NCBI RefSeq assembly: GCF_040939125.1
Contig: NZ_CP162495.1
Location: 3,224,001-3,288,000, forward strand
Direction of reading: 5' to 3'
Origin: Clostridium sp. BJN0013
Lineage (GTDB): Bacteria; Bacillota; Clostridia; Clostridiales; Clostridiaceae
DNA: 64,000 nucleotides
Made by a program: the position numbers and the translations under genes. Below the pieces are notes generated by a model. The model was not told the DNA's origin. It made no database searches and saw nothing but the letters and a program-made list of their open reading frames with translations. Below are positions 43,282 to 61,867 of the stretch, piece by piece (the first letter of the stretch is position 1; each line of letters starts with the position of its first letter).

Positions 43282-43350
43282 AATATATGAATTATATTAT
43301 CATATGTAAAATAAATATTCAATAACTTTATGAAAAAACTTACTATAAAA

Positions 43351-43393
43351 TTAAATTCCAGTAAAATAAATTGTTCATTTTACTGGAATTTAA
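43351..43393 (-). terminator. Hairpin terminator at the end of the microcompartment operon
   Basis: Perfect 17-bp stem (TTAAATTCCAGTAAAAT and complement) with a nine-base loop, about 60 bases past the last pduT stop. On the minus strand it is followed by TTTTATAG. It isolates the operon from the ACT-domain gene. Confidence 0.75.
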
Positions 43394-43455
43394 TATAAAA
43401 TACTTTCTGTTCTAGTTTTTATAGTTATTAAAATTCACTTTACTTTTATGCTACA

Positions 43456-44004
43456 TTATAACAAATGTGGCAATAAATCTTTATTTGGTCCGGATATAAC
43501 TTCACTATTTACAAGCATTCCAGTTTCAAGTGAAACATTGACCCCGGCTTCTATTGCATTCTTAACTGCACTTACATCTCCTGTAAGAGTTACAAAAGAT
43601 TTTCCGCCCATTCCCATTCCTAATCTAACTTCTATAAGCTGTACATCTGCTGCTTTAGCTGCCGCATCTGCTGCAACAATACCTGTTGCCACACTAAAGA
43701 ATTCCATAACTCCTAAATCCTTTAATTTTACAACACCTGTAGCCTCATTTATTGCAGGAATTACCTGTTCATGAACATTTGGAAGTAATAACTTGTCTAC
43801 TACATGTTTTCCTCCTATGCTCACTGCTGCTTCTATTGAAGCTGTAACAGCCCCTACATTTCCTGTAATCAATACAATGTATTTACCAGGACAAATAGTC
43901 TTTGCCAGAAGTAATTCAACTTCTGCTGCCTTTATCATAGCATCTGCTGTCTTTATTCCCCTGGCTATACTGTTTAATTCTATCATTCCTATAGTTCTTA
44001 TCAT
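43456..44004 (-). CDS. pduT: PduT-type double-BMC-domain shell protein, copy B2
   Basis: Trimeric microcompartment shell protein that holds a [4Fe-4S] cluster at the trimer centre. 182 residues, two BMC domains (about 1-88 and 95-182). The cluster Cys is in TICPGKYIVL, residue 38. I start at the ATG at 44004 after GAGGTG, matching the A copies; a GTG three codons earlier is less likely. Amino-acid identical to copy B1 (47533-48081). It overlaps nothing and follows its pduS by 18 bases; last gene of the operon. Confidence 0.95.
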   Translation of the reverse strand: MIRTIGMIELNSIARGIKTADAMIKAAEVELLLAKTICPGKYIVLITGNVGAVTASIEAAVSIGGKHVVDKLLLPNVHEQVIPAINEATGVVKLKDLGVMEFFSVATGIVAADAAAKAADVQLIEVRLGMGMGGKSFVTLTGDVSAVKNAIEAGVNVSLETGMLVNSEVISGPNKDLLPHLL

Positions 44005-44021
44005 GGTTATCACCTCAACCC

Positions 44022-45353
44022 TTAAATAGCTTTTATGACTACATTTTCATTTACTTCAACAACAGTTCCATCGATGCTGGCATGTACATTTGTTCCCATT
44101 TTTCCTTCATCTATTGCCCCTATCTTCTGGCCTTTCTTAACCACATCTCCTACTTTAACAACTGCTGTAGATGGCGCACCTATACCCTGTTTCAAAGGAA
44201 TACTTACCTGTGCTGGTACCAACTCTTCATTTTCTTTATATGGTTGTCCTTTGTATTTATTCATTCCCAGTCTTGTTATTAACATACCTGTAGGAACTTT
44301 TCTGTATTCTCTTTGAGGGTCTCCTTCAAATACATCTGTAGTGTTCTTCCATTTTATACCTTTAGCTCCTAGTTGAGCTTTAACATATCCATTTATACGT
44401 CTAGGAGATAACCCATTTGGACATGCATACATTTCACATACTCCACACTGGCAGCACATTATTGCTTCCTTAAGAACCTCTTCATCGTTTCTCCCTAATG
44501 CCATAGTTCTCATTATTTTATGTGGGTGTAGTGGATGTCCAATCTGATATCTAGGACATAGTTCTGTACAATAACGACATTGTTCACAGGCTGCTTTTGC
44601 TCTGTGTACCATCTCATCTATAGTAAGTCTTTCTCTTTCAGCTACATAATGATCCTTTGGAATTACTATAATTCCTCCGTTAGTTTTTGTAATAACTGTG
44701 TTTTGTGCTTCCTCTTTTGAGATTTTCTTTCCCATCATAGGTCCGCCCATTATTACTACGTAATCGCCTACAGTGGCTCCTCCGCATTTTTCTATACATT
44801 CTGTAACTTTTGTACCTATAGGAACTTTAACTATTGCAGGACTTGCAACTTCTCCTATAACAGTTACATATTTGTATGTAACGGGCTCATCCTTAAGAGC
44901 TTCAAATACATTAAATACTGTACCTACATTTGATACCACTGCTCCTACACTTGAAGGTATTGCTCCTGGTGGTATTGTCTTTCCTGTTACTTCATAAACC
45001 AGTATCTGTTCATCCCCTGCAGGATAAAAAGTTCTGTTTAAAAACAGTTCTACTGAAGAATTTAACTTTTTTATAGACTTTGTAAGTGCATCTATTTCAT
45101 CATAATAAACTTCTTTTAAACCTATTACAATTTTTTCTGCCCCTAATGATTTTCCTATTATCTCTGTTGCACCTACTATTTCATCACTGTGATTTCTCAT
45201 TAAATATTTATCTGACTGTAATAGTGGTTCACACTCTAAACCATTTACTATGAAATATTTAACTTTGGTATTAAGCTTTACATGAGTAGGAAATCCTGCT
45301 CCTCCAGCTCCTATAATACCTGCATCTTTAATCTTTTTTAGTAAATCCATCAT
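44022..45353 (-). CDS. pduS: PduS-type RnfC-like flavin/iron-sulfur protein, copy B2
   Basis: Membrane-independent RnfC relative that passes electrons from NADH/FMN to cobalamin in Pdu systems and partners PduT. 443 residues: a GAGGAGFPTH loop (residues 15-24), SLBB fold (about 160-230), two [4Fe-4S] clusters CEQCRYCTELCP and CCQCGVCEMYACP, and a barrel-sandwich hybrid C-terminus. Two tandem ATGs; the second (45350) is better spaced from GAGGTG. Identical in protein sequence to copy B1 (48099-49430). Confidence 0.94.
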   Translation of the reverse strand: MMDLLKKIKDAGIIGAGGAGFPTHVKLNTKVKYFIVNGLECEPLLQSDKYLMRNHSDEIVGATEIIGKSLGAEKIVIGLKEVYYDEIDALTKSIKKLNSSVELFLNRTFYPAGDEQILVYEVTGKTIPPGAIPSSVGAVVSNVGTVFNVFEALKDEPVTYKYVTVIGEVASPAIVKVPIGTKVTECIEKCGGATVGDYVVIMGGPMMGKKISKEEAQNTVITKTNGGIIVIPKDHYVAERERLTIDEMVHRAKAACEQCRYCTELCPRYQIGHPLHPHKIMRTMALGRNDEEVLKEAIMCCQCGVCEMYACPNGLSPRRINGYVKAQLGAKGIKWKNTTDVFEGDPQREYRKVPTGMLITRLGMNKYKGQPYKENEELVPAQVSIPLKQGIGAPSTAVVKVGDVVKKGQKIGAIDEGKMGTNVHASIDGTVVEVNENVVIKAI

Positions 45354-45416
45354 TACACCTCTCTTACCCCTAAAGGTTGTAATATTTATACTACCGTATT
45401 TACATTGTTGTAAATG

Positions 45417-45503
45417 TTATATGTCATATCCTCCAAAGCCCATTTCTGCATAAGAAGGTGCATTCTTAACAAATATAGTAGTATCTATTTTTTCTATTTT
45501 TAG
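45417..45503 (-). pseudogene. Fossil of pduP (propionaldehyde/acetaldehyde dehydrogenase), remnant 1
   Basis: Between pduT-A2 and pduS-B2 the minus strand encodes IFVKNAPSYAEMGFGG preceded by IDTT and closely followed by a stop. This matches the conserved C-terminal block of CoA-acylating aldehyde dehydrogenases of the PduP/EutE group (pattern: I-D-T-x-I-F-V-K-N-x-P-S-Y-A-G-x-G-F-G-G). Upstream of it the frame has stops. All that remains of about 460 residues is 28. Confidence 0.78.
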
Positions 45504-45571
45504 CTAACTCTATAATACTAAATTATATTACATCCCTATAAATTATCTTGTTTAATATAATCTTATATATC

Positions 45572-46120
45572 TTACAATAAATATTGTAATAAATCTTTAC
45601 TTGGTCCGGATATAACTTCACTATTTACAAGCATTCCAGTTTCAAGTGAAATATTAACTCCAGCTTCTACTGCATTCTTAACTGCACTTACATCTCCTGT
45701 AAGAGTTACAAAGGACTTTCCTCCTACTCCTACTCCCATTCTAACTTCTATAAGCTGTACATCTGCTGCTTTAGCTGCCGCATCTGCTGCAACTATACCT
45801 GTTGCTATACTGAAGAATTCCATAACTCCTAAATCTTTTAATTGTGAAACACCTGTTGCTTCATTTATTGCAGGAATTACCTGTTCATGTACATTTGGAA
45901 GCAATAGTTTGTCTACTACATGCTGTCCTCCTATTTGTACTCCTGCTTCTATTGAAGCTGTAACAGCTCCTACATTTCCTGTAATTAATACAATGTATTT
46001 TCCTGGACAAACAGTCTTTGATAAAAGCAACTTTACTTCTGCAGCTTTTACCATGGCATCTGCTGTCTTCATTCCTCTTGCTATACTATTTAACTCTATC
46101 ATTCCTATAGTTCTTACCAT
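45572..46120 (-). CDS. pduT: PduT-type double-BMC-domain shell protein, copy A2
   Basis: 182 residues, two BMC domains, cluster-binding Cys in TVCPGKYIVL. Differs from the B copies at scattered positions (for example QIGGQHV against SIGGKHV) but is protein-identical to copy A1 (49546-50094); one synonymous base change, Phe TTT against TTC, is the only difference I saw. ATG with GAGGTG upstream. Follows pduS-A2 by 17 bases. Confidence 0.95.
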   Translation of the reverse strand: MVRTIGMIELNSIARGMKTADAMVKAAEVKLLLSKTVCPGKYIVLITGNVGAVTASIEAGVQIGGQHVVDKLLLPNVHEQVIPAINEATGVSQLKDLGVMEFFSIATGIVAADAAAKAADVQLIEVRMGVGVGGKSFVTLTGDVSAVKNAVEAGVNISLETGMLVNSEVISGPSKDLLQYLL

Positions 46121-46137
46121 GATATCACCTCAACTTT

Positions 46138-47466
46138 TTATATAGCCTTTATGACTACATTTTCATTTACTTCTATAACTTCGCCCTTAATGCTGGCATG
46201 TACATTTGTTCCCATTTTCCCTTCGTCTATTGCACCTACCATCTGTCCTACTTCTACTGTATCTCCTACAGAAACTATTGCTGTAGATGGTGCACCTATA
46301 CCTTGTTTCAATGGAATACTTACCTGTCCTGGAACTAATTCTTCTCCCTCTTTAATTGCCTGTCCCTTATATTTATCCATCTTTAATCTTGCAATTAATC
46401 TACCTGTCGGGATTCTCTTTTCTTCTCTCATTATTCTGCCTTCAAAATGGTCTGTTTCATTCTTCCATTTTATACCCTTTGCCATCATCTGTGCTTTAAC
46501 ATATGCATTCATTCTCCTTGGGGATAATCCCATAGGACATGCAAACATTTCACACACTCCACATTGACAACATATTATTGCTTCTTTTAGTGCTTCATTT
46601 CCTTCACTTAAAGCTATACCTCTCATTATCTTATGTGGATGCATAGGATGTCCAATTAAAAATCTTGGACACATATCTGTACAATAATGACATTGTATAC
46701 AGGATGATTTTGCCTTATTTATCATATGGTCTATTGATATTGTTTCTTTTTGTGCTATAAGATGATTGCTTGGAATTACTATAATTCCTCCGTTAGTTTT
46801 TGTAATAACAGTGTCTTCTGCTTCCTCTTTTGAAAGCTTCTTTCCCATCATAGGTCCACCCATTACTACTATATAATCATCTACTGTAGTACCTCCACAC
46901 TTGTCTATACATTCCATAACTTTTGTACCTATTGGAACTTTTATAATAGCAGGGCTTCCTACTTCTCCTATAACAGTTACATACTTGTATGTAACCGGTT
47001 TATCATTAATAGCATCAGCAATATTGACTACTGTACCTACATTTGATACCACTGCCCCTACGCTTGAAGGTATTGCTCCTGGTGGTATTGTCCTTCCTGT
47101 TACTTCATAAACCAATACTTGCTCATCGCCTGCAGGATAAAAAGCTTCACTTAAAAATAACTCTACTGTTGAATTTAATTTGTCTATGGACTTTTTAAGT
47201 GCTTCTATTTCAGTATGATAAGCTGATTTTAAGCCTATTACAGCATGTTCTGCTCCAATTGTTTCCCCTATTTTTTGTACAGTCTCTACTATCTGGTCAC
47301 TATAGTTTCTCATCAAATATTTATCTGACTGCAGTAATGGTTCACATTCCAAACCATTTACTATGAAATATTCAACTTTGGTATTCAATTTTACATGAGT
47401 CGGAAATCCTGCTCCTCCAGCTCCTATAATACCTGCATCTTTAATCTTTTTTAGTAAATCCATCAT
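46138..47466 (-). CDS. pduS: PduS-type RnfC-like flavin/iron-sulfur protein, copy A2
   Basis: 442 residues with the GAGGAGFPTH loop, SLBB fold, CIQCHYCTDMCP and CCQCGVCEMFACP cluster motifs. Protein-identical to copy A1 (50112-51440); about three quarters identical to the B copies, the first 30 residues almost fully. Eighteen bases before pduT-A2. Confidence 0.94.
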   Translation of the reverse strand: MMDLLKKIKDAGIIGAGGAGFPTHVKLNTKVEYFIVNGLECEPLLQSDKYLMRNYSDQIVETVQKIGETIGAEHAVIGLKSAYHTEIEALKKSIDKLNSTVELFLSEAFYPAGDEQVLVYEVTGRTIPPGAIPSSVGAVVSNVGTVVNIADAINDKPVTYKYVTVIGEVGSPAIIKVPIGTKVMECIDKCGGTTVDDYIVVMGGPMMGKKLSKEEAEDTVITKTNGGIIVIPSNHLIAQKETISIDHMINKAKSSCIQCHYCTDMCPRFLIGHPMHPHKIMRGIALSEGNEALKEAIICCQCGVCEMFACPMGLSPRRMNAYVKAQMMAKGIKWKNETDHFEGRIMREEKRIPTGRLIARLKMDKYKGQAIKEGEELVPGQVSIPLKQGIGAPSTAIVSVGDTVEVGQMVGAIDEGKMGTNVHASIKGEVIEVNENVVIKAI

Positions 47467-47532
47467 TACACCTCTCTTACCCCTAAAGTGTTGTAATACT
47501 ATACTACTCTACTTATATTATTCTTACATATT

Positions 47533-48081
47533 CTATAACAAATGTGGCAATAAATCTTTATTTGGTCCGGATATAACTTCACTATTTACAAGCATTCCAG
47601 TTTCAAGTGAAACATTGACCCCGGCTTCTATTGCATTCTTAACTGCACTTACATCTCCTGTAAGAGTTACAAAAGATTTTCCGCCCATTCCCATTCCTAA
47701 TCTAACTTCTATAAGCTGTACATCTGCTGCTTTAGCTGCCGCATCTGCTGCAACAATACCTGTTGCCACACTAAAGAATTCCATAACTCCTAAATCCTTT
47801 AATTTTACAACACCTGTAGCCTCATTTATTGCAGGAATTACCTGTTCATGAACATTTGGAAGTAATAACTTGTCTACTACATGTTTTCCTCCTATGCTCA
47901 CTGCTGCTTCTATTGAAGCTGTAACAGCCCCTACATTTCCTGTAATCAATACAATGTATTTACCAGGACAAATAGTCTTTGCCAGAAGTAATTCAACTTC
48001 TGCTGCCTTTATCATAGCATCTGCTGTCTTTATTCCCCTGGCTATACTGTTTAATTCTATCATTCCTATAGTTCTTATCAT
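47533..48081 (-). CDS. pduT: PduT-type double-BMC-domain shell protein, copy B1
   Basis: 182 residues; same protein as copy B2, with the same GTG/ATG start choice (ATG 48081 preferred). Only 66 bases separate it from pduS-A2, so the array has no room for another gene here. DNA identity with B2 starts at the run before the stop and carries through the whole gene. Confidence 0.95.
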   Translation of the reverse strand: MIRTIGMIELNSIARGIKTADAMIKAAEVELLLAKTICPGKYIVLITGNVGAVTASIEAAVSIGGKHVVDKLLLPNVHEQVIPAINEATGVVKLKDLGVMEFFSVATGIVAADAAAKAADVQLIEVRLGMGMGGKSFVTLTGDVSAVKNAIEAGVNVSLETGMLVNSEVISGPNKDLLPHLL

Positions 48082-48098
48082 GGTTATCACCTCAACCC

Positions 48099-49430
48099 TT
48101 AAATAGCTTTTATGACTACATTTTCATTTACTTCAACAACAGTTCCATCGATGCTGGCATGTACATTTGTTCCCATTTTTCCTTCATCTATTGCCCCTAT
48201 CTTCTGGCCTTTCTTAACCACATCTCCTACTTTAACAACTGCTGTAGATGGCGCACCTATACCCTGTTTCAAAGGAATACTTACCTGTGCTGGTACCAAC
48301 TCTTCATTTTCTTTATATGGTTGTCCTTTGTATTTATTCATTCCCAGTCTTGTTATTAACATACCTGTAGGAACTTTTCTGTATTCTCTTTGAGGGTCTC
48401 CTTCAAATACATCTGTAGTGTTCTTCCATTTTATACCTTTAGCTCCTAGTTGAGCTTTAACATATCCATTTATACGTCTAGGAGATAACCCATTTGGACA
48501 TGCATACATTTCACATACTCCACACTGGCAGCACATTATTGCTTCCTTAAGAACCTCTTCATCGTTTCTCCCTAATGCCATAGTTCTCATTATTTTATGT
48601 GGGTGTAGTGGATGTCCAATCTGATATCTAGGACATAGTTCTGTACAATAACGACATTGTTCACAGGCTGCTTTTGCTCTGTGTACCATCTCATCTATAG
48701 TAAGTCTTTCTCTTTCAGCTACATAATGATCCTTTGGAATTACTATAATTCCTCCGTTAGTTTTTGTAATAACTGTGTTTTGTGCTTCCTCTTTTGAGAT
48801 TTTCTTTCCCATCATAGGTCCGCCCATTATTACTACGTAATCGCCTACAGTGGCTCCTCCGCATTTTTCTATACATTCTGTAACTTTTGTACCTATAGGA
48901 ACTTTAACTATTGCAGGACTTGCAACTTCTCCTATAACAGTTACATATTTGTATGTAACGGGCTCATCCTTAAGAGCTTCAAATACATTAAATACTGTAC
49001 CTACATTTGATACCACTGCTCCTACACTTGAAGGTATTGCTCCTGGTGGTATTGTCTTTCCTGTTACTTCATAAACCAGTATCTGTTCATCCCCTGCAGG
49101 ATAAAAAGTTCTGTTTAAAAACAGTTCTACTGAAGAATTTAACTTTTTTATAGACTTTGTAAGTGCATCTATTTCATCATAATAAACTTCTTTTAAACCT
49201 ATTACAATTTTTTCTGCCCCTAATGATTTTCCTATTATCTCTGTTGCACCTACTATTTCATCACTGTGATTTCTCATTAAATATTTATCTGACTGTAATA
49301 GTGGTTCACACTCTAAACCATTTACTATGAAATATTTAACTTTGGTATTAAGCTTTACATGAGTAGGAAATCCTGCTCCTCCAGCTCCTATAATACCTGC
49401 ATCTTTAATCTTTTTTAGTAAATCCATCAT
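48099..49430 (-). CDS. pduS: PduS-type RnfC-like flavin/iron-sulfur protein, copy B1
   Basis: 443 residues, same protein as copy B2 with offset 4,077 bases. GAGGAGFPTH, CEQCRYCTELCP and CCQCGVCEMYACP are intact, so all cluster ligands are kept. The upstream spacer (116 bases to pduT-A1) contains pduP remnant 2 and differs from the matching 218-base spacer of the other unit. Confidence 0.94.
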   Translation of the reverse strand: MMDLLKKIKDAGIIGAGGAGFPTHVKLNTKVKYFIVNGLECEPLLQSDKYLMRNHSDEIVGATEIIGKSLGAEKIVIGLKEVYYDEIDALTKSIKKLNSSVELFLNRTFYPAGDEQILVYEVTGKTIPPGAIPSSVGAVVSNVGTVFNVFEALKDEPVTYKYVTVIGEVASPAIVKVPIGTKVTECIEKCGGATVGDYVVIMGGPMMGKKISKEEAQNTVITKTNGGIIVIPKDHYVAERERLTIDEMVHRAKAACEQCRYCTELCPRYQIGHPLHPHKIMRTMALGRNDEEVLKEAIMCCQCGVCEMYACPNGLSPRRINGYVKAQLGAKGIKWKNTTDVFEGDPQREYRKVPTGMLITRLGMNKYKGQPYKENEELVPAQVSIPLKQGIGAPSTAVVKVGDVVKKGQKIGAIDEGKMGTNVHASIDGTVVEVNENVVIKAI

Positions 49431-49496
49431 TACACCTCTCTTCCCCCTGAAATGTCGTAATATTTATATTACTTTTACTATTAATTATATACTTCC

Positions 49497-49540
49497 CTTC
49501 AAAGCATGTCTGCATAAGAAGGTGCATTCATAACAAATTT
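49497..49540 (-). pseudogene. Fossil of pduP, remnant 2
   Basis: Between pduT-A1 and pduS-B1 the minus strand encodes FVMNAPSYADM followed by a Leu codon and a stop. It corresponds to FVKNAPSYAEM of remnant 1 but with substitutions and a shorter flank, showing that the two spacers have decayed independently. Confidence 0.65.
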
Positions 49541-49545
49541 AAATA

Positions 49546-50094
49546 TTACAATAAATATTGTAATAAATCTTTACTTGGTCCGGATATAACTTCACTATTT
49601 ACAAGCATTCCAGTTTCAAGTGAAATATTAACTCCAGCTTCTACTGCATTCTTAACTGCACTTACATCTCCTGTAAGAGTTACGAAGGACTTTCCTCCTA
49701 CTCCTACTCCCATTCTAACTTCTATAAGCTGTACATCTGCTGCTTTAGCTGCCGCATCTGCTGCAACTATACCTGTTGCTATACTGAAGAATTCCATAAC
49801 TCCTAAATCTTTTAATTGTGAAACACCTGTTGCTTCATTTATTGCAGGAATTACCTGTTCATGTACATTTGGAAGCAATAGTTTGTCTACTACATGCTGT
49901 CCTCCTATTTGTACTCCTGCTTCTATTGAAGCTGTAACAGCTCCTACATTTCCTGTAATTAATACAATGTATTTTCCTGGACAAACAGTCTTTGATAAAA
50001 GCAACTTTACTTCTGCAGCTTTTACCATGGCATCTGCTGTCTTCATTCCTCTTGCTATACTATTTAACTCTATCATTCCTATAGTTCTTACCAT
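49546..50094 (-). CDS. pduT: PduT-type double-BMC-domain shell protein, copy A1
   Basis: 182 residues, two BMC domains, cluster Cys in CPGKY. Protein-identical to copy A2 at offset 3,974. It follows pduS-A1 by 18 bases. The offset differs by 103 bases from that between the B copies because the A-to-B spacers differ in length. Confidence 0.95.
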   Translation of the reverse strand: MVRTIGMIELNSIARGMKTADAMVKAAEVKLLLSKTVCPGKYIVLITGNVGAVTASIEAGVQIGGQHVVDKLLLPNVHEQVIPAINEATGVSQLKDLGVMEFFSIATGIVAADAAAKAADVQLIEVRMGVGVGGKSFVTLTGDVSAVKNAVEAGVNISLETGMLVNSEVISGPSKDLLQYLL

Positions 50095-50111
50095 GATATC
50101 ACCTCAACTTT

Positions 50112-51440
50112 TTATATAGCCTTTATGACTACATTTTCATTTACTTCTATAACTTCGCCCTTAATGCTGGCATGTACATTTGTTCCCATTTTCCCTTCGT
50201 CTATTGCACCTACCATCTGTCCTACTTCTACTGTATCTCCTACAGAAACTATTGCTGTAGATGGTGCACCTATACCTTGTTTCAATGGAATACTTACCTG
50301 TCCTGGAACTAATTCTTCTCCCTCTTTAATTGCCTGTCCCTTATATTTATCCATCTTTAATCTTGCAATTAATCTACCTGTCGGGATTCTCTTTTCTTCT
50401 CTCATTATTCTGCCTTCAAAATGGTCTGTTTCATTCTTCCATTTTATACCCTTTGCCATCATCTGTGCTTTAACATATGCATTCATTCTCCTTGGGGATA
50501 ATCCCATAGGACATGCAAACATTTCACACACTCCACATTGACAACATATTATTGCTTCTTTTAGTGCTTCATTTCCTTCACTTAAAGCTATACCTCTCAT
50601 TATCTTATGTGGATGCATAGGATGTCCAATTAAAAATCTTGGACACATATCTGTACAATAATGACATTGTATACAGGATGATTTTGCCTTATTTATCATA
50701 TGGTCTATTGATATTGTTTCTTTTTGTGCTATAAGATGATTGCTTGGAATTACTATAATTCCTCCGTTAGTTTTTGTAATAACAGTGTCTTCTGCTTCCT
50801 CTTTTGAAAGCTTCTTTCCCATCATAGGTCCACCCATTACTACTATATAATCATCTACTGTAGTACCTCCACACTTGTCTATACATTCCATAACTTTTGT
50901 ACCTATTGGAACTTTTATAATAGCAGGGCTTCCTACTTCTCCTATAACAGTTACATACTTGTATGTAACCGGTTTATCATTAATAGCATCAGCAATATTG
51001 ACTACTGTACCTACATTTGATACCACTGCCCCTACGCTTGAAGGTATTGCTCCTGGTGGTATTGTCCTTCCTGTTACTTCATAAACCAATACTTGCTCAT
51101 CGCCTGCAGGATAAAAAGCTTCACTTAAAAATAACTCTACTGTTGAATTTAATTTGTCTATGGACTTTTTAAGTGCTTCTATTTCAGTATGATAAGCTGA
51201 TTTTAAGCCTATTACAGCATGTTCTGCTCCAATTGTTTCCCCTATTTTTTGTACAGTCTCTACTATCTGGTCACTATAGTTTCTCATCAAATATTTATCT
51301 GACTGCAGTAATGGTTCACATTCCAAACCATTTACTATGAAATATTCAACTTTGGTATTCAATTTTACATGAGTCGGAAATCCTGCTCCTCCAGCTCCTA
51401 TAATACCTGCATCTTTAATCTTTTTTAGTAAATCCATCAT
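50112..51440 (-). CDS. pduS: PduS-type RnfC-like flavin/iron-sulfur protein, copy A1
   Basis: 442 residues, first of the four-pair array in transcription order. Full motif set: GAGGAGFPTH, SLBB fold, CIQCHYCTDMCP, CCQCGVCEMFACP, C-terminal biotinyl-lipoyl-like barrel. RnfC/PduS proteins bind FMN and NADH in the N-terminal half and pass electrons to the clusters; PduS reduces cob(III)alamin in Salmonella. Upstream lies a 470-base gap with a pduO fossil. Confidence 0.94.
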   Translation of the reverse strand: MMDLLKKIKDAGIIGAGGAGFPTHVKLNTKVEYFIVNGLECEPLLQSDKYLMRNYSDQIVETVQKIGETIGAEHAVIGLKSAYHTEIEALKKSIDKLNSTVELFLSEAFYPAGDEQVLVYEVTGRTIPPGAIPSSVGAVVSNVGTVVNIADAINDKPVTYKYVTVIGEVGSPAIIKVPIGTKVMECIDKCGGTTVDDYIVVMGGPMMGKKLSKEEAEDTVITKTNGGIIVIPSNHLIAQKETISIDHMINKAKSSCIQCHYCTDMCPRFLIGHPMHPHKIMRGIALSEGNEALKEAIICCQCGVCEMFACPMGLSPRRMNAYVKAQMMAKGIKWKNETDHFEGRIMREEKRIPTGRLIARLKMDKYKGQAIKEGEELVPGQVSIPLKQGIGAPSTAIVSVGDTVEVGQMVGAIDEGKMGTNVHASIKGEVIEVNENVVIKAI

Positions 51441-51911
51441 TACACCTCTCTTCCCTCTAAAGTGTTGTAATATTTATATTACTATCTATGACATTATACT
51501 CCATTTTCTAAGCTCAGTAAAGAAATTTACAACTGTTAATCCTTTACTTATATTAGTGTCATAATATTATAAATATCATATAAACCTTCACTTGCAAATA
51601 CAATGGGTACATACAACAAAGAACCCTCTTAAAAAATAAATAACAACATATATTCTAATCATAAACAACATTATTTAAGAATATATTCACTAAAACCAAC
51701 TAAAGGAACTTGTACAAATCTTCATATTCCATATAAATCTTTGCCAAATCAATTTTAGAATTTCTACAATAATATTTTCGTAAACTGATAATTTTGATTC
51801 AATATTTGCTTTTTCTCACTTAACCAATTAAATTTGTACTTCTACTATCACCAATTTTAGTGCATACTTCATTTTTATTATCACATAAAATATTATTTTG
51901 AAAAGGATGCA
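51441..51911. other. Gap between eutN and the S/T array
   Basis: 470 bases without an intact gene. About 120 bases nearest eutN carry the pduO fossil; the rest is AT-rich with short open stretches such as DLAKIYMEYEDLYKFL that I could not assign. Confidence 0.6.
51750..51872 (-). pseudogene. Fossil of pduO (ATP:cob(I)alamin adenosyltransferase)
   Basis: Just after eutN, minus strand, an ATG AAG TAT is followed, with one frame change, by CTKIGDSRSTNLIG. That matches the N-terminal nucleotide loop of PduO-type adenosyltransferases (VYTKTGDKGETSLIGG pattern). Further on a second frame reads EKANIESKLSVYEN, similar to the RIEAYGTVDELN segment. In canonical operons pduO follows pduN, which supports the reading. 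Frameshifts and stops make it inactive. Confidence 0.62.
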
Positions 51912-52193
51912 TTAAATTAAACTTTCGTTCCACTCAACGGAATCTACAATTCCTACAATTGAAGCATCTGTTGGTATATCTATAGTATTACTTGCTTTTC
52001 TTGCTCCACTTCCTGTAACAACAATAACAATTTCGTTAATGCCGGCACCTACTGTATCTATAGCAACCATAGGTTCAGTTTGTATTATATTTTCTTTTTC
52101 ATCTAGTTTTTTAACTATTAGAAGTTTATTTCCTATGAGCTTTTCATGCTTCTGAGTAGAAACAACGTTTCCCACTACTTTAGCTAAAAACAT
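51912..52193 (-). CDS. pduN: EutN/PduN/CcmL-type pentameric vertex protein
   Basis: Caps the twelve vertices of the icosahedral shell. 93 residues, MFLAKVVGNVVSTQKHEKLIGNK start and VAIDTVGAGINEIVIVVTGSGAR are the family signature. AAGGAGAG before ATG. Intact, so a closed shell could be built with the BMC-H and BMC-T proteins here. Confidence 0.95.
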   Translation of the reverse strand: MFLAKVVGNVVSTQKHEKLIGNKLLIVKKLDEKENIIQTEPMVAIDTVGAGINEIVIVVTGSGARKASNTIDIPTDASIVGIVDSVEWNESLI

Positions 52194-52226
52194 ACTTACT
52201 CTCCTTTTCTTAAAGTTTTTCAGTTT

Positions 52227-53177
52227 CTAACAATACTTTACAGTTATACCGTTATTATCTATATAATCTTTTGCTAAAGGAGTTATTAAAGCACCTTGCT
52301 TTACATTAATTTCCTTACATCCGTGAGCATTTTTCGTAATATCTTTCATTGTTATAATCCCTGATAACATTCTTTTGTCTTCAATTGTTTTCAGTTCATT
52401 TGAACTCGAATCTGAAGATACTTTTGGAATCTCACAAACTGTCGGTGTGTCTTTTACTCTTTCTACAGTATTACTTGCTTGTTCTTGTACAGTATTGTTT
52501 ACTGGCTTTGTATTTCCTAATCTACTATTTATTTGTTTCTCTACTATAGCACTGATTAGATCTTCCATGCTTTCTTTATTCACAGGCTTACTCTTCTCGC
52601 TGCCATGTACAGTCCTGTGATTTATAAGAACACATTTTTCTTCTATTGCTTTCTTCAAGTTATTTCCTTCTACAAAATCAATTCCTAAACTACTCAAACT
52701 ATCCTTGTAATTCAATATAAATTTATTATATGCCTTATTTTTACTAAGTCCTAAAGACACATTTGTAGGATTTTCAGGATCAAAACTATCTGTTACTGCA
52801 ATTATTTCTTTACCCATCATAAGAGCTTCCGCTATACCTGTAGTAACCAAGTTATCTTGTATTCCAACTGCACATTTAGACAATGTATTCCTAGTCATTA
52901 CAGGTATTACTACTAAATCATCTGCTTTTGTAGCATTAGTCAATTCTTCTTTAGATTCTATCACCTTTCCCTTTAAACTACTAATGTAAACTTCTGGAAT
53001 AATGTTTTTGGCATTTTCTGTCATAACTATATCGTATTTTATAATGCCCATGGAAGAAAGAGATTCAAATATCTCTTTTAAGTTAACTTCTCCTCCAGAT
53101 ATAAACAAAAGTGCTCTTTTATTTAACATATTTACAATTTGAGTAACTATAGGTCTCAGTAAATCTTGAATATCCAT
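52227..53177 (-). CDS. Microcompartment-associated flavoprotein
   Basis: 316 residues. N-terminal amphipathic helix MDIQDLLRPIVTQIVNML looks like an encapsulation peptide. A flavoprotein (PF02441-like) fold covers about 22-190 (LLFISGGEVNLKEIF ... TAEALMMGKEIIAVTD). A charged, low-complexity linker follows, then a short C-terminal block (KEINVKQGALITPLAKDYI) that resembles tails found in EutQ/EutT-like and other BMC proteins. Homologues are common in glycyl-radical and Pdu-type loci; substrate unknown. 33 bases before eutN. Confidence 0.72.
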   Translation of the reverse strand: MDIQDLLRPIVTQIVNMLNKRALLFISGGEVNLKEIFESLSSMGIIKYDIVMTENAKNIIPEVYISSLKGKVIESKEELTNATKADDLVVIPVMTRNTLSKCAVGIQDNLVTTGIAEALMMGKEIIAVTDSFDPENPTNVSLGLSKNKAYNKFILNYKDSLSSLGIDFVEGNNLKKAIEEKCVLINHRTVHGSEKSKPVNKESMEDLISAIVEKQINSRLGNTKPVNNTVQEQASNTVERVKDTPTVCEIPKVSSDSSSNELKTIEDKRMLSGIITMKDITKNAHGCKEINVKQGALITPLAKDYIDNNGITVKYC

Positions 53178-53237
53178 TTACTCACCTCACTTATTTTTAA
53201 GTCATCTAACCCCTAGTCGCACTTTATAGAATACTTT

Positions 53238-54239
53238 CTAACTAAATTTAGTGTCATTCATAGCAATTCCCATAGGTGTTACTAAAAGGGGATCGTGTGG
53301 TTTAATAGTTTTTATACCTGTATACTTTTCAAATACCTTTTCTATATCTTTTAGACAACAGGTTCCTCCAACCAAATAAATTTCATTTACATTAAATCCC
53401 TTAATATGCTGAACAACTATATCTGCCATTTTTTCTACCACTGGCCTTACTAATGTAAACACTCTATTATAATTTTTCATATCAACTTTGTATTTCTCTG
53501 CCGATTCATAATCCATTTGAAGTGCTCCAGCTACAACTAAACTTAAATGATGTCCTCCAGTAGGTTCATCCGCTGAATACACTACTTCTCCATCTTGTAA
53601 TATGGATATTCCTGTAGTTCCGCCACCTACGTCTACCACTGCACCATTTTTTATTTTTAAGACTTCAGAAGCTGCAGTTGGTTCATCTACTACATTACTT
53701 ACTTGAAATTCTGCTGCTTCTACCACATTTTGAATAACCTTTGTATTCCCTGCACTTATTCCTGGTGGTATAGCCGTAGCAGCATATAATAATTCTCTGT
53801 TTAAAGTACCCTCCAATTTACCCTTTAACTTTCTAAGTATAGTTACGGCATTCAGATATTCAACAACTATACCATCTCTAACTACATTTGCAGAAAACAA
53901 CTCTCCTGCCACTGGTCTATTATTTTCATCTAATACTGCTACAACAATATTAGAAGTACCTAAATCTACTCCAACTTTCAATTTATCATCTTTACCTACT
54001 GCCCTAGGATTTTTCATAACTTTCTCCATATCCATTATGAATGCATTAGCATCATCTAATATACTTTTTTTAACTGGTTTTTTAGGTACATTTTCTTTTA
54101 CATCTTCTTTTTCAACTTCTTTTACATTTTCATTTGCAGCTTCTTTTTCTTTTGGAGTTTCTTTAGGCACATCACGTTTTAAAGATTTTTTAGGTGGATC
54201 ATTCACTCCTAATAAAATTTTTGAAAGCTTTCTTGCCAT
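53238..54239 (-). CDS. eutJ: EutJ-like actin/Hsp70-fold chaperone with extended N-terminus
   Basis: 333 residues. The ATPase domain starts at about residue 87 (KVGVDLGTSNIVVAVLDE), with DVGGGTTGISIL and YLVGGTCCLKDIE, as in EutJ (usual length about 280). The first 86 residues are Lys/Glu/Pro-rich and predicted to be disordered, not part of the usual family. Proposed role in BMC enzyme folding or reactivation. It lies between pduL and the flavoprotein gene, the place usually held by pduM/pduJ-type genes. Confidence 0.85.
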   Translation of the reverse strand: MARKLSKILLGVNDPPKKSLKRDVPKETPKEKEAANENVKEVEKEDVKENVPKKPVKKSILDDANAFIMDMEKVMKNPRAVGKDDKLKVGVDLGTSNIVVAVLDENNRPVAGELFSANVVRDGIVVEYLNAVTILRKLKGKLEGTLNRELLYAATAIPPGISAGNTKVIQNVVEAAEFQVSNVVDEPTAASEVLKIKNGAVVDVGGGTTGISILQDGEVVYSADEPTGGHHLSLVVAGALQMDYESAEKYKVDMKNYNRVFTLVRPVVEKMADIVVQHIKGFNVNEIYLVGGTCCLKDIEKVFEKYTGIKTIKPHDPLLVTPMGIAMNDTKFS

Positions 54240-54251
54240 ATCATCACCTGC

Positions 54252-54914
54252 TTATTTTAATATTCTAATTAAAGCATTATTTTTTATCTCACACGCATTA
54301 GCTTCATCTGTGTCTATATGGAACTCTAAAGCGGATGTATCAGTTACTCTAACTAAAACATTCTTAAAAATGACCCCTTTATCTCCCATAGTTTCTACCT
54401 TTACTAAATCTCCATCTTTCACTCCGTAAACTTTTGCCTGCTCCGGTAACATATGAACGTGTCTATTAGCACATATAACTCCATTCTTAAGAATTATTGA
54501 TCCCTTAGGCCCAATAACAGAAAGAGTCTCTGAACCTTTTAAATCTCCTGAATTTCTAACTGGTGCTTTTATACCAAGAGTACGTGAATCTGTTCTAGAA
54601 AGTTCAATTTGGCTGTAGCTTCTTATAGGTCCTAAAATTCTTACTTTAGGAAAGATAGCTTTTGCTCCTGCAATAGCAACAGTTTCATTTGCTGCGAACT
54701 GTCCTGGTTGCTTTACTGGACCTTTAACTGTTAATTCATATCCTTCACCAAATAAACATTCCAAATGCTCTTTAGTTAAATGGATGTGCCTATTAGATAT
54801 ACCTACAGGTATAGAAAATCCATCCTTATCAATTTCAGCTTTAGGTTCAGGCTTAGTTCCGGTTACAATTTTAGCTACTATATCTTGTATTAATTTTTCA
54901 TTTATTTCTACCAT
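54252..54914 (-). CDS. pduL: PduL-type phosphotransacylase
   Basis: Converts acyl-CoA to acyl-phosphate inside the compartment and recycles CoA. 220 residues. N-terminal helix [17 protein letters not shown] is an encapsulation-peptide type. Zinc ligands in SNRHIHL, ANRHVHM and [12 protein letters not shown] are all present. With pduP lost, its acyl-CoA source in this operon is unclear. Six bases after pduK, tight coupling. Confidence 0.95.
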
Positions 54915-54920
54915 AATTCA

Positions 54921-55877
54921 TCACTTTCCCATCTTTTTATAATGAAGGCATAAATGCCTTGGCTGTCCTTTTCTCCTAGGGCATGCAGGATCACGACATA
55001 TATTACATACTTCATTATCTTTAGCATTCTTTTTTGAAGAAACATGATTTTCTGCTTTAGCTTTATCTTTTTTAGTAGTTACTTCTGCATCTTTTTCCTT
55101 TGCTTCTTCATTAGAATTATTATTATTTGGCTCCATGCTTTCTTTAAGAGTCAAACTTTCTTCTGTGTTCTCAACTTTTTCTTTATCTGACTCTACATCT
55201 TTTTCAGGAGTTAAATCTTTTTCCAATTCTATATCTTTCTCAAGAGCTAAATCTTCTGGCTCTTTAGTTTCTTTTGGAGTTGAGTCCTCTTTTGATTCTT
55301 CAGCTTCTTCTGGAGCCGAACCTTCTTCTGATTTTTCAGTTTCCTCTGGAGCTGAATTCTCTTTTGATTCTTCAGCTTTTTCTGGAGCCGAACCTTCTTC
55401 TGATTTTTCAGTTTCTTCTGAAACTGAATCTTCTTCTAATTTTTCAGTTTCCTCTGGAGCTGAATTCTCTTTTGGTTCTTCAGCTTCTTCTGGAATCAAA
55501 TCCTTTTCTGATTCTAAATTTTTTTCAGAAACTAAAGTTTCTTGTGCTTCTTTATCACAAATTAAATTTTCCTCTGGTTCTGTATTTTTAATTCCTACTG
55601 TTGAATTAGATTCTATAATCTTGTGTAAATTCTGTGCAGGTCTTGGTATAACAAGAGTTCCAACTACGGTACCTATTCTTTCTGCACTTACTTTTCCTGC
55701 ATCAATGGCAGCTTTAACCGCTCCTACGTCACCTTCTATTTTAATTGCTACAAGTCCACCTGTTGTCAACTCATAACCTATAAGGGTTACATTAGCCGAT
55801 TTCACACAACTATCTGCAGCTTCTACTGCTGCAGTCATTCCAATAGTTTCAATAACACCAATAGCTTCTCCATTCAT
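54921..55877 (-). CDS. pduK: PduK-type BMC shell protein with long acidic linker and C-terminal FeS-type motif
   Basis: About 318 residues from the ATG at 55877, six bases after GGGGGG; the TTG at 55880 is less likely. BMC domain about 1-90 (IGVIETIGMTAAVEAADSCV), then roughly 180 residues of imperfect Glu/Ser/Lys/Pro repeats (units like EETEKSEEGSAPE), and a tail CNICRDPACPRRKGQPRHLC with four cysteines, as in PduK. Typical PduK is about 160 residues, so the linker is doubled. Repeats are likely to vary in length between strains. Confidence 0.92.
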   Translation of the reverse strand: MNGEAIGVIETIGMTAAVEAADSCVKSANVTLIGYELTTGGLVAIKIEGDVGAVKAAIDAGKVSAERIGTVVGTLVIPRPAQNLHKIIESNSTVGIKNTEPEENLICDKEAQETLVSEKNLESEKDLIPEEAEEPKENSAPEETEKLEEDSVSEETEKSEEGSAPEKAEESKENSAPEETEKSEEGSAPEEAEESKEDSTPKETKEPEDLALEKDIELEKDLTPEKDVESDKEKVENTEESLTLKESMEPNNNNSNEEAKEKDAEVTTKKDKAKAENHVSSKKNAKDNEVCNICRDPACPRRKGQPRHLCLHYKKMGK

Positions 55878-56319
55878 CAAAATCCCCCCCTTGCTACATT
55901 ATGGAGTTAATGCATAAATTTTAGAGAATAATTAAACTTCTTAAAAATATAAATGACTACAGAACTACTTTGTCCGTTGTTCTAATTTCTCATTACTTGC
56001 ACTATAAATTGATCTCAAAGGTATAACTTTATAGAATCTTGAAGCGTTACACCCAATTATTCTATACCTACTTTATTCTTTCATAAATATCTAGAGTCCT
56101 TTATTAATAAGAGGGTGATTTTCTTTAAGTTTATAGCGATGAAGTACTGCTCCTATCGTTTTCAATCGCACTAGCTGTCTCCATTATAGATTTTTTCTGA
56201 AGCTTTACAGGCAAACTTATCTATTTTATTATAACCAAAAGCTACATTTTTAAATTGACATTATGCTACAACTTACCTCACTATATCTGGTATTTAAAAT
56301 TTAAACACTCTCTTAAAAT
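55878..56319. other. Gap between pduE and pduK
   Basis: 442 bases with no intact gene; holds the pduH fossil (55975-56250) and nothing readable of pduG, which in canonical operons lies between pduE and pduH. Confidence 0.7.
55975..56250 (-). pseudogene. Fossil of pduH (small subunit of diol dehydratase reactivase)
   Basis: The minus strand reads, in shifting frames, KFACKASEKIYNGDS, then SAIENDRSS, then AVLHRYKLKENHPL, then GCNASRFYKVIPLRS. These match in order the known PduH/DdrB pattern (x-A-x-S...GIGI-D...VVLH-x-x-LP-x-x-PLF ... G-x-NAAR-x-VKGIPF). The match GxNAxRxxKxIPxR near the end is the most specific. Several stops and frame changes show it is dead. Position after pduE and before pduK fits canonical order. 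Confidence 0.72.
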
Positions 56320-56850
56320 CTACAATTTTATCATATTCCTTTTTTCATATGATTCAATCGCTTCCCTAACAAGCTCAGCATTTAATTTAGCATTATACTT
56401 ACTTTCAAGTTCGTCTGCTATTTCAATTAATTGCTGTTTTGTAGATTTATGAGGTTTTAAAGCATTATAAATTTCTACCACCCTATCATCTGGAACTACG
56501 GTAAGTTCAGCTGCTCTCATAAGATTTGCTGCAAGTTGAATATTACCTACAGATTCCGCTATTTGAGCCTGATATAAAAGTGTTTTTTTATTTATCTTAA
56601 CATCATCTAAAGTTATTTTTCCACTTAACACATTTTCTAAGCTTATATCATTTATAGCTTTACCTGTACTTGTCTTTATAAGATCCGGTCTCTTTTTACC
56701 TAGGGGATAATCTTTTTTATTTACAACTTCACAAGATTTTCTACCACCATGAATTTCTTCAGATTTATATTTCTGTTGATTATTTTGAATAGATTCCATA
56801 CTTTTCAAAACTTCTTTAACTATTTGTTCTATTAAATCATTACTGCTCAT
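56320..56850 (-). CDS. pduE: Diol/glycerol dehydratase small subunit PduE
   Basis: Gamma subunit of the adenosylcobalamin-dependent dehydratase. About 176 residues from the ATG at 56850, after GGAGTGGAGCT; the in-frame start at 56868 lies ahead of that site. N-terminal helix MSSNDLIEQIVKEVLKSM is of encapsulation-peptide type. Core DYPLGKKRPDLIKTSTGKAI and LMRAAELTVVPDDRVVEIY are PduE signatures. Normally preceded by pduD, which is missing here. Confidence 0.92.
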   Translation of the reverse strand: MSSNDLIEQIVKEVLKSMESIQNNQQKYKSEEIHGGRKSCEVVNKKDYPLGKKRPDLIKTSTGKAINDISLENVLSGKITLDDVKINKKTLLYQAQIAESVGNIQLAANLMRAAELTVVPDDRVVEIYNALKPHKSTKQQLIEIADELESKYNAKLNAELVREAIESYEKRNMIKL

Positions 56851-56879
56851 AGCTCCACTCCTATTCAAAATTTACTCAT

Positions 56880-56975
56880 AATGTTTTTCAATCTGAAAAT
56901 TTTTGTATACTTAATGGCTACTTGTGAAAATAGTTTTAAAACTATAACATAAATTAAGATAAATAATTAATATTT
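56880..56975 (-). pseudogene. Possible scar of pduD (medium subunit) between pduC and pduE
   Basis: Only about 120 bases separate the pduC stop and the pduE start, where a gene of about 670 bases is expected. One frame reads VAIKYTKIFRLKN, weakly like the C-terminal LHIKETKYVVTGKN of medium subunits. Too short to be sure; the absence of pduD itself is certain in this window. Confidence 0.4.
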
Positions 56976-58640
56976 TTAAATCTTATGGGGTTCTAAAGCA
57001 AAATTTACATTCTTCAATTCATCCCATTTTTTTGCTTCTACCCTATAACCAGTTCCAGGTCCCATATAATCGTTTCTATCATTTATTGCACTTATAACAT
57101 TATATTGTTCATCAAATATCGAAGACTGATGCAAATAATCTCCTATCAATCTCTGTTTAAACATGTTAAGTATACTTTCAGCAACATCAGCAAAGCCTCC
57201 ATTATAAAGTCCCTTAACTATATCTAATATTGTAACGCCTTTATCTAACAATTTTTCAATTGCCTTCAAATCTTCTTCTACATTTCTAGCTGGCATATCT
57301 CTACTACCATGAGCATAAGTTGCAGCTTCCACTTCTTCATCAGTTATAGATGGCAATCCTAATTCCTTGAACAAAGCCTGAATTGCTCTAGCAGACTTAT
57401 TCCTAACTGCTATAACTTCTTCTTCCTTAACAGGCTTAAGTCCCCCATCAATTCTTAAATCTCTTTGCAAAATTAACCAGTCATCATAATTTTCTGCATT
57501 CCAATTTGAATGTGTAAACACATTATCGTAACTTGGAGTAGAATTATACCCCGGAGATACAAAATCAGCTCCAGGTAGAAATTGCAACATAGCTTTTGAA
57601 GTTTTTCTGATTTCAGAATTTGTAAAAACTTGCTCATTACCTGATACAACCTCTAAACCAAGCATTTCAGTTATAAGGCTCTTTCCTAGAATTGCTTTTA
57701 TACCTTCTGGTACTGCTGCTGAAACACCAGCAGCATTCACTAACCCATTTTGCAATCCTTGAACTCCTGTACCTTTAGCCATCATTATACACCTTGCTTC
57801 TAAATAAAGCATTGATTTTCCCTCTGAATATCCCATTTGAACTTCAGAACCAATGCTTGAAGAAAATCTCATTTTAAATCCTCTCGAAGTATATGCTGAA
57901 GCTAAGAAAGAATTAGACCAAGGAGTATCATCACCCTCTACAAATGCACTTTCTGTACCATATACAGATATAGTTTCTACATAAGAAGCAAAACCAAGCA
58001 TACCTAATTTAATTTTCGTAGCATCTTCCAGTAAACATTGCGTTAATACCCCAGGCCTTCCTATCTGAGAACCTATTAAGATTGAAATCGCATTAAAAAG
58101 GGTATATCTTAACATTCCTGCTCTTGTTTCCATTTCTGCAAAACCTCTAAGGGCTCCCTCCGCTGAATCTGCTGCAATTTGAACAGGATTATCCCGCAAA
58201 TTAGTCACACATGCTTGGTTTGCAGGTGTCCTTCTGGCCTTCATTTTCTGAAGAGCCATCATCATTTCCACTACATTTAAGTTACTAATTACTTCTACCA
58301 ATTTTGCTGCTGTAAGTGAATTAGTTATATTCATAATTTCATCTCTGGAAATATTTATATCCACCAACATTCTAGCAATATCCAGTGAATCCATTGCCAT
58401 AGCTTTTTCTGTATTTTTTACATTGATTGAATGATCTGCAAGAAAGATATCTATAAAATCAAACTCTTCTCTCCTCTTTCCATCCATCTCAATTATTTTT
58501 CCATCTTCCACTTTAACACTTGGAATAGGATCATTAGGACTTTCTATGGCCACAAGTCCTATTTCGGGCCATTCTTTCACAAAGCCATCCTTATGAATTG
58601 ACCTTTGCTCTAATACCTCAAATCTTTCAGATCTCCTCAT
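56976..58640 (-). CDS. pduC: Diol/glycerol dehydratase large subunit PduC homologue with substituted active site
   Basis: Alpha subunit that carries the active site for B12-dependent dehydration of 1,2-diols. 554 residues, full length, no interruption. Gln142, Glu171, Glu222 and Gln297 match the metal/substrate ligands Gln141, Glu170, Glu221 and Gln296 of the Klebsiella enzyme. But Cys144 replaces His143, Glu336 replaces Asp335 and Pro363 replaces Ser362; B12-site positions Thr172, Asp234 and Ser301 are also changed (Arg, Glu, Asn). The comparison is from remembered reference sequence. Such changes make normal activity unlikely. Confidence 0.9.
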   Translation of the reverse strand: MRRSERFEVLEQRSIHKDGFVKEWPEIGLVAIESPNDPIPSVKVEDGKIIEMDGKRREEFDFIDIFLADHSINVKNTEKAMAMDSLDIARMLVDINISRDEIMNITNSLTAAKLVEVISNLNVVEMMMALQKMKARRTPANQACVTNLRDNPVQIAADSAEGALRGFAEMETRAGMLRYTLFNAISILIGSQIGRPGVLTQCLLEDATKIKLGMLGFASYVETISVYGTESAFVEGDDTPWSNSFLASAYTSRGFKMRFSSSIGSEVQMGYSEGKSMLYLEARCIMMAKGTGVQGLQNGLVNAAGVSAAVPEGIKAILGKSLITEMLGLEVVSGNEQVFTNSEIRKTSKAMLQFLPGADFVSPGYNSTPSYDNVFTHSNWNAENYDDWLILQRDLRIDGGLKPVKEEEVIAVRNKSARAIQALFKELGLPSITDEEVEAATYAHGSRDMPARNVEEDLKAIEKLLDKGVTILDIVKGLYNGGFADVAESILNMFKQRLIGDYLHQSSIFDEQYNVISAINDRNDYMGPGTGYRVEAKKWDELKNVNFALEPHKI

Positions 58641-59107
58641 TAACTTACACCACCCTCTTAGATATAAAAGTTAGTAGTAGAAACAGAACTTTGTCCCAAT
58701 AACTTTAAAACATACCACATCTGTCTCTTACTTCTTGGGCGGCAATTACTGATTGTGTAACAGTACTTAAAATTCCACTCAACACTATACTTTTAATTCT
58801 TGTTCAAGTGGTTCTTCTACTGCCCTTTTTCATCAGATACATCTTTAGCAGTTACTTATAAATGATTAACAACCTCATGTTTAGCTTTAACCTCTGTAAT
58901 TTTTCATATTCAACACCTACAGCTTTTTCTGCAAATCCAATTATTATTAACGGAGCCCTTATAAACTAAATTCATTTCTTTAATGTATCACTCAAATTTC
59001 ATAGGTCAAAATTTTTCAAATTATGCTTTCATTAAACTGACTTAAAACCTTTTCGATTAAATCATCACCTAGTATAACTGCCTTTATTAATAATCAGACT
59101 TGATTTA
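58641..59107. other. Gap between pduA and pduC
   Basis: 467 bases with no intact gene; most of it is the pduB fossil. Confidence 0.7.
58700..59085 (-). pseudogene. Fossil of pduB (double-BMC-domain shell protein)
   Basis: Minus strand, in order but different frames: DDLIEKVLSQF (like the N-terminal helix of PduB), RAPLIIIGFAEKAVG (against GAGPQIMAADEAVK), AKDVSDEKGAVEEPLEQEL (against AEDVSDVKRAVEVALKEL) and VLSGILSTVTQSVIAAQEV (against ISGDSGAVRQAVIAAREV near the C-terminus). Stops and frameshifts lie between the blocks, and about half of the gene is deleted. In canonical operons pduB follows pduA and precedes pduC. Confidence 0.8.
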
Positions 59108-59386
59108 TTAACCAATTTTAGGTAATATTTTTTCAACATCTGTATGAGGTCTTGGAATAACATGTACTGATACAAGTTCTCCTACTCTCTGAGCTGAAGC
59201 AGCTCCTGCATCTGTAGCAGCTTTTACTGCACCTACATCTCCTCTTACCATAACGGTTACAAGTCCTGAACCTATTTGTTCTTTTCCTATTAATTGAACA
59301 TTTGCTGCCTTTACCATTGAATCAGCTGCCTCAATAGCTCCAACTAATCCTTTTGTTTCAATCATACCTAATGCTTCTTGTCCCAT
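59108..59386 (-). CDS. pduA: PduA/PduJ-type hexameric BMC shell protein
   Basis: Main shell tile with a central pore. 92 residues. [24 protein letters not shown] start, the [23 protein letters not shown] core, and [13 protein letters not shown] near the end. The pore loop KEQIGSG is as in PduA. First gene of the operon; GGAGGTG before ATG. With PduK, PduT and PduN it makes a complete set of H, T and P shell components. Confidence 0.96.
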
Positions 59387-61229: not shown

Positions 61230-61281
61230 ATCTAACATTCCTTTCTTTATCAAATTTTTATAACCTATAAATTAAATCTTT

Positions 61282-61830: not shown

Positions 61831-61867
61831 TCAACTTACCACCTTTCCTATTTTAAGACATATAACT

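Follow-up and report, generated by a model that had tools for sequence, protein, structure and literature searches.

The window, a 64,000-nucleotide stretch of the Clostridium sp. BJN0013 chromosome, carries a reduced Pdu microcompartment operon on its minus strand at positions 43456-59386. Our preferred interpretation, held with moderate confidence, is that this operon has lost its B12 dehydratase activity and has been kept as a 'satellite' that would provide parts to the ethanol-oxidising compartment of the ETU locus, located at about 1,115,200-1,125,300 of the same chromosome. From the sequences we infer that both loci build one organelle. The loss of this activity probably dates back to an ancestor shared by the C. 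kluyveri group, represented here by this genome (G000) and two sister genomes (G003 and G004).

In the operon pduA comes first (59386) and a pduT last (43456). The intact open reading frames (ORFs) listed in the initial annotation are present, namely pduA, pduC, pduE, pduK, pduL, eutJ, a flavoprotein gene, pduN and four pduS/pduT pairs; Pfam and NCBIfam identities were given to 10 of the 16 ORFs, one S and one T representing all four pairs. The shell set described there as complete is likewise encoded, with BMC-H (PduA and PduK), tandem BMC (four PduT) and BMC-P (one PduN) types. Family searches found no dehydrogenase, no kinase and no intact signature enzyme among the operon proteins.

Both sister genomes have the same genes in the same order, with PduC 94% identical and four tandem S/T pairs, and every one of the three genomes has open frames for one and the same set of 12 gene kinds. 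The ratio of nonsynonymous to synonymous substitution rates (dN/dS) was calculated by the Nei-Gojobori method for the three genome pairs. It is 0 for N and 0-0.16 for A (few changes stand behind these two figures), 0.07-0.09 for L, 0.10-0.13 for EutJ, 0-0.15 for S and T, 0.11-0.16 for C, 0.12-0.24 for the flavoprotein and 0.21-0.32 for E. The value for K, whose repeat-rich linker aligns poorly, is 0.25-0.62, outside the 0-0.32 range of the other genes. The operon genes are kept under purifying selection rather than dying.

When the four gaps of the operon are summed, 125 of 1272 aligned bases differ between this genome and G003 (9.8%) and 107 of 1211 between this genome and G004 (8.8%), the corresponding four-fold sites differing at 137 of 1188 and 154 of 1185. 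For the pair G003-G004 the gaps differ at 29 of 1219 bases (2.4%), codon positions 1 and 2 at 0.9%, and four-fold sites at 76 of 1239 (6.1%). This genome differs from its sisters by 3.0-3.1% at codon positions 1 and 2 and by 11.5-13.0% at four-fold sites, gap divergence being about three times that at positions 1 and 2. Strict neutrality of the gaps is not supported, since their divergence stays below that of the four-fold sites; therefore, part of the gap DNA may be constrained. Near-invariant columns were compared for C, A, E, L, N and EutJ. None is altered in L (0/32), N (0/14) or EutJ (0/43). PduA deviates at two of 30 columns, a number equalled or exceeded by 14 of 51 relatives, and PduE at three to four of 25, above every one of 53 relatives.

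PduC is altered in its active site. It was compared with 82 relatives at 238 near-invariant columns, each relative being left out in turn as a control (the named pduC loci, 80 in number, are the best of 199 and contain much redundancy). The proteins of the three genomes are changed at 47, 47 and 45 of these columns, against a median of two and a maximum of 15 among the relatives; 42 columns are changed in every one of the three, and 52 if a change in any one of them is counted. The substitutions common to the group include H144C, T173R, S302N, D336E and S363P, at the positions of His143, Thr172, Ser301, Asp335 and Ser362 of diol dehydratase (Klebsiella numbering from alignments with 1iwp and 1dio, the latter offset by one, and from PMC7674605; for Thr172 diol dehydratase numbering is assumed). 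According to the part of PMC7674605 consulted, the Asp335 mutants tested in diol dehydratase are inactive, H143A has a kcat of 5.1 per s against 304 for the wild type (values from two studies), and the beta subunit (PduD) forms the B12 pocket together with alpha. The intact PduC active site expected of a functional PDU is found in none of the three genomes.

The pattern of change within the group is also altered. Between this genome and G003, PduC differs at 15 of the 238 formerly invariant columns and, among the other 316, at 19. The 54 control pairs of relatives (92-95.5% identity), which are non-independent and include many Citrobacter, total 37 invariant against 2063 other changes, with at most three invariant changes per pair. 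As the formerly invariant columns now vary like the others, the dehydratase constraint pattern is gone while the protein is still selected. PduC combines changed catalytic residues with purifying selection on its gene, as expected of a pseudoenzyme, and it is a probable one. A scaffold or cargo-anchor role for PduC and PduE is our guess.

The remains of other pdu genes were sought in the gaps with profiles (control: 20 shuffles of two-base blocks) and with tblastn (control: 30 shuffles). A pduH fossil is clear in all three genomes, scoring 36.8-38.7 bits against a shuffle maximum of 3.8, and 58-62 bits in tblastn with the two nearest PduH proteins. For pduO a clear fossil is confined to this genome (15.7 bits, shuffle maximum 5.8); the N-S gaps of the sister genomes, which are shorter, gave no match. 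The pduB signal is weak and occupies the same place in the three genomes (3.1 bits here, 4.3 and 5.1 in the sisters, shuffle maximum 1.5), its tblastn pieces of 21-23.5 bits lying within noise (shuffle maximum 24.3, n=30). No pduP fossil was found, the best score, 4.0 bits upstream of pduA, being equal to the shuffle maximum of 4.0, and that of the N-S gap of this genome being below zero. For pduD nothing clear was seen in the gaps: the best score, 3.4 against 3.2 in shuffles, falls inside the pduH fossil of a sister genome. The pduG profile scored below zero there. PF02288 (PduD) matches nothing in this genome or in its sisters G003 and G004. Of 13 genomes of the genus, four do have a match and serve as the positive control, and PduD is present in the fetched stretch of all 82 other pduC loci. 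PF08841 (PduG) has a single 24-bit match elsewhere in the genome, of a kind also seen in nine genomes that have no pdu reactivase.

The initial annotation had proposed fossils of pduB, pduH, pduO and pduP, the loss of pduD and pduG, and a dead B12 core. The pduH and pduO fossils and both losses are borne out; pduB is weakly indicated, and pduP is no better than shuffled sequence. In the core, pduC is intact as a gene with an altered active site. A functional PDU would require the complete PduCDE dehydratase, the PduGH reactivase and the adenosyltransferase PduO. Here PduD is missing, and PduH and PduO are fossils, an adenosyltransferase elsewhere in the genome not having been searched for. As for intact genes that might act in trans, also raised there, a PduB-type EtuB and aldehyde and alcohol dehydrogenases occur elsewhere in the genome; PduD does not.

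These partners belong to the ETU locus, which is present in all three genomes. In this genome it consists of a two-component system, etuA and etuB followed by aldehyde and alcohol dehydrogenase genes, two of each; the aldehyde dehydrogenase beside EtuB is of the acetylating type, and an alcohol dehydrogenase is also next to it. EtuB of this genome matches PDB 3io0 (EtuB) with 476 bits and also matches the PduB family; the lost pduB therefore has an intact counterpart. EtuB is 55-63% identical to six PduB-type proteins of relatives, and those are 68-90% identical among themselves. In all three genomes the EutN-type vertex gene and the PduL gene occur exactly once each, always in the Pdu operon. 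The ETU locus has neither vertex protein nor PduL, and co-option was suggested in the consulted text of PMC4207490. A satellite should hold parts that the main locus lacks; in this genome the operon contains the only vertex gene and the only PduL gene. The two ETU aldehyde dehydrogenase copies encode proteins that are 100% identical (L106:2745-8829), a second case of identical duplicates tied to the same compartment.

The ETU locus of the kluyveri type is syntenic with a locus of genome G008 that contains a topoisomerase-like gene, an alcohol dehydrogenase-like gene, a glycyl-radical enzyme, its activase, a two-component system, A, B, an aldehyde dehydrogenase and an alcohol dehydrogenase. Matching in G008 was by family for B, the aldehyde dehydrogenase, the radical enzyme and its activase, and by eye from the first residues for the flanks, 'topoisomerase' being the label that we presume for the flanking gene. 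The kluyveri-type locus lacks the radical enzyme and the activase, and 69 bases remain in their place (L109:299-11439, L004:8988-12276). Outside this locus, the three kluyveri-type genomes have a radical enzyme of at best 39-40% identity over about 590 residues, compared with 63-77% in G005, G006 and G007. In G008, too, vertex protein and PduL are encoded only once each, inside the Pdu operon, so reliance on that operon may predate the ETU locus. In the tree of PMC4207490, as far as the source was consulted, one GRM3 aldehyde dehydrogenase branches near ETU.

The pduS/pduT array is the amplified part of the operon. The duplicate S genes of this genome are identical (1329/1329 and 1332/1332), and those of G004 nearly so (1325/1326 and 1329/1332). 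S genes differ by 3-6% between genomes, and duplicates are identical or nearly identical within each of the three, while the spacers differ, which suggests concerted evolution of the S/T array, probably by gene conversion. The T2 copies of G003 and G004 were missed by the motif filter of this comparison; eight tandem BMC domains per genome were counted separately. PduS keeps the CxxCxxCxxxCP motif (Fe-S), and PduT keeps a single Cys (T2 position 38), which we take to serve an Fe-S cluster. The consulted part of PMC4207490 relays a proposal in which electrons cross the shell by way of PduS and PduT.

In the satellite interpretation, the ETU dehydrogenases would convert ethanol to acetyl-CoA and NADH inside the compartment, and PduL would recycle CoA as acetyl-phosphate. 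The amplified PduS/PduT pairs, if they serve ETU, could return NAD+, with electrons leaving via the Fe-S cluster of PduT. The least secure step is that PduC, devoid of B12 chemistry, might stay with PduE as an encapsulated pseudoenzyme, acting as scaffold or cargo anchor. A broader version, which we offer tentatively and think somewhat less probable than not, is that ethanol oxidation in the kluyveri group takes place in a composite organelle derived from a B12-type and a glycyl-radical-type propanediol microcompartment, each minus its dehydratase. PduC without PduD would then be a structural pseudoenzyme, and the S/T pairs, kept identical by gene conversion, would be fourfold because the NADH that the compartment produces has to be reoxidised across its shell.

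Other explanations have to account for the same observations. The operon could be a passive relic in mid-decay whose open genes have not yet been struck, as would fit the pduH, pduO and probable pduB fossils lying between open genes, the disappearance of pduD and pduG, and the drift of PduC from the dehydratase consensus. The sister genomes largely refute this: the 12 gene kinds have open frames in each of the three genomes, with dN/dS far below 1, the gaps of this genome diverge from its sisters by 8.8-9.8% against 3.0-3.1% at codon positions 1 and 2, PduN is identical in the three genomes, and no near-invariant column is altered in L, N or EutJ. We regard such a relic as very improbable. Of the two possibilities left by the initial annotation, a locus decaying mid-way and one kept for a new purpose, the former is not sustained. 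Repurposing is preferred to decay because two sister genomes share the gene set with dN/dS of 0-0.32 for every gene tested except K; strictly neutral gaps are not supported.

It is unlikely, in our opinion, that PduC and PduE form a new enzyme that acts on its own substrate with neither PduD nor B12. PduC is under purifying selection, keeps four of its five K+ ligands and has changed mostly within residues 130-390 (this stretch has 45 of the 52 changed columns and 109 of the 186 that are unchanged, limits set after the list was seen), all of which would speak for it. However, the changes at the equivalents of His143, Asp335, Ser362 and Thr172 remove the known chemistry, and the formerly invariant columns vary between species like any others, unlike those of a conserved new active site. 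Rather improbable too is a shell built by the operon apart from ETU around other cargo, with the flavoprotein and PduS/PduT as redox core. The BMC-H, tandem BMC (PduT) and BMC-P types are available for it, and PduE has an encapsulation-type N terminus (read by eye), but the operon has no dehydrogenase, kinase or intact signature enzyme, and it contains the vertex protein and PduL that ETU lacks (PMC4207490, consulted in part). The new kind of microcompartment envisaged in the initial annotation is not upheld: the operon lacks a catalytic core of its own, the missing parts are at ETU, and the link was already proposed in PMC4207490.

Several points weigh against the satellite interpretation. 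Divergence in the gaps, at 2.4-9.8%, is below the 6.1-13.0% of four-fold sites, and the clade is sampled by three genomes. PduC is not wholly stripped, the retained K+ ligands being Q142, E171, E222 and Q297, and D336E is a conservative change, Glu being absent among the Asp335 changes listed in the consulted part of PMC7674605. The ETU and pdu promoter boxes are similar with different spacing (24 and 21 bp), and the pdu-type two-component system beside pduA, kept in relatives G002, G005 and G010, is gone from the window operon, so that common regulation through a shared operator is at best putative.

Table. Features of the reduced Pdu operon and its flanks in the window
Feature	Position	Strand	Basis or remark
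Operator-like direct repeat AAGTACAT...AAATACA upstream of pduA	59513..59540	-	boxes 21 bp apart
pduA, BMC-H shell protein	59108..59386	-	ORF and family search; 0-1 aa differences from two sister genomes
Gap, probable pduB fossil	58641..59107	-	end piece ~58729-58824; start-like piece near 59020-59073 (by eye)
pduC, large subunit	56976..58640	-	open frame, altered active site, probable pseudoenzyme; dN/dS 0.11-0.16
Gap at expected pduD place	56869..56975	-	no pduD trace found
pduE, small subunit	56320..56868	-	family match; dN/dS 0.21-0.32
pduH fossil, reactivase small subunit	55968..56171	-	profile and tblastn
pduK, BMC-H with repeat-rich linker and Cys-rich tail	54921..55880	-	family match; length varies among genomes
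pduL, phosphotransacylase	54252..54914	-	sole PF06130 gene of genome
eutJ-type chaperone-like ATPase	53238..54239	-	family match
Flavoprotein	52227..53177	-	TIGR02536-like, under that family's cut-off
pduN, BMC-P vertex pentamer	51912..52193	-	sole PF03319 gene of genome; protein identical in three genomes
pduO fossil, adenosyltransferase	51715..51870	-	profile and tblastn
Four pduS/pduT pairs	43456..51440	-	operon order S2T2 S1T1 S2T2 S1T1
Terminator-like 20-bp stem after last pduT	43350..43394	-	longest stem of 6 terminator-like sites

The operator-like repeat occurs upstream of pduA in G000, G003 and G004 and in relatives G002, G005 and G010. In the three genomes of the group it persists, with its 21-bp spacing, although the adjoining two-component system is lost. 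A loose form of the pattern has 12 matches in the whole genome, none of them at etuA. The six terminator-like sites compare with 6.3 expected from shuffles. No Rfam match reached the gathering score between 43000 and 60500. PduE has a putative N-terminal encapsulation-type helix and its likely start is at an internal ATG, both read by eye. Directly upstream of the operon, at 59838-62629, are genes that are presumably hydrogenase-like and iron-sulphur or ferredoxin-like; similar genes also stand upstream of the complete operons in G002 and G005. Another dispersed microcompartment site of the same genome (L001:6325-9840) has two EutP/PduV-type genes with a small BMC-domain match between them.

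Clostridium kluyveri is a model for ethanol-based chain elongation, and PMC13101501 (consulted in part) reports a genetic system for it as well. Cofactor recycling in its ethanol compartment, and the closure of a shell that has no vertex protein of its own, are open in the consulted parts of PMC4207490 and PMC6620236. The sequences point to one operon as the source of the parts missing from ETU, and the question becomes testable gene by gene. If our reading of PduC is true, a conserved, altered protein stands as a pseudoenzyme where the signature enzyme was, and the locus illustrates a change of microcompartment substrate via loss of the head enzyme.

Complete Pdu operons of Clostridium, as in C. 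luticellarii (L007/L098) and isolate BL-3 (L008/L096), have the order A-B-C-D-E-G-H-K-(L)-J-flavoprotein-N-O, with P found in L098 and pduL present in L098 but absent from the BL-3 operon. B, D, G, H and O are retained in these operons and have all been lost from the window operon. The ETU locus of C. kluyveri, found in the same genome as the window operon, encodes related shell proteins. It carries dehydrogenases and lacks vertex protein and PduL, whereas the window operon has both of the latter. In GRM1 loci an altered second aldehyde dehydrogenase is kept and was proposed to be a scaffold or regulator (PMC4207490, consulted in part), much like the altered PduC here. That protein is of another enzyme family and has an active partner beside it, while no active dehydratase was found in the window genome.

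The closest known system is the reduced 'PDU-like' locus of C. kluyveri (Axen, Erbilgin and Kerfeld 2014, PMC4207490), which in the consulted text has no PduD and no core aldehyde or alcohol dehydrogenase, has four PduS and was suggested to share parts with ETU. The reduced locus and its ETU link are already known from that account, and the window locus adds a further genome of the group described there. In the literature searched, consulted in part, an inactive PduC in C. kluyveri is not mentioned, the 2008 genome paper and the 2009 EtuB paper being outside that coverage; nor did we meet there a description of a PduC that is altered yet under selection, of the gene fossils, of the relation between ETU and a glycyl-radical locus or of the concerted S/T array. 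What the present comparison adds to PMC4207490, its GRM3 tree remark aside, is the loss of the PduC active site, the gene fossils, the evidence for selection, the probable concerted evolution of the S/T array and a putative glycyl-radical ancestor of the ETU locus.

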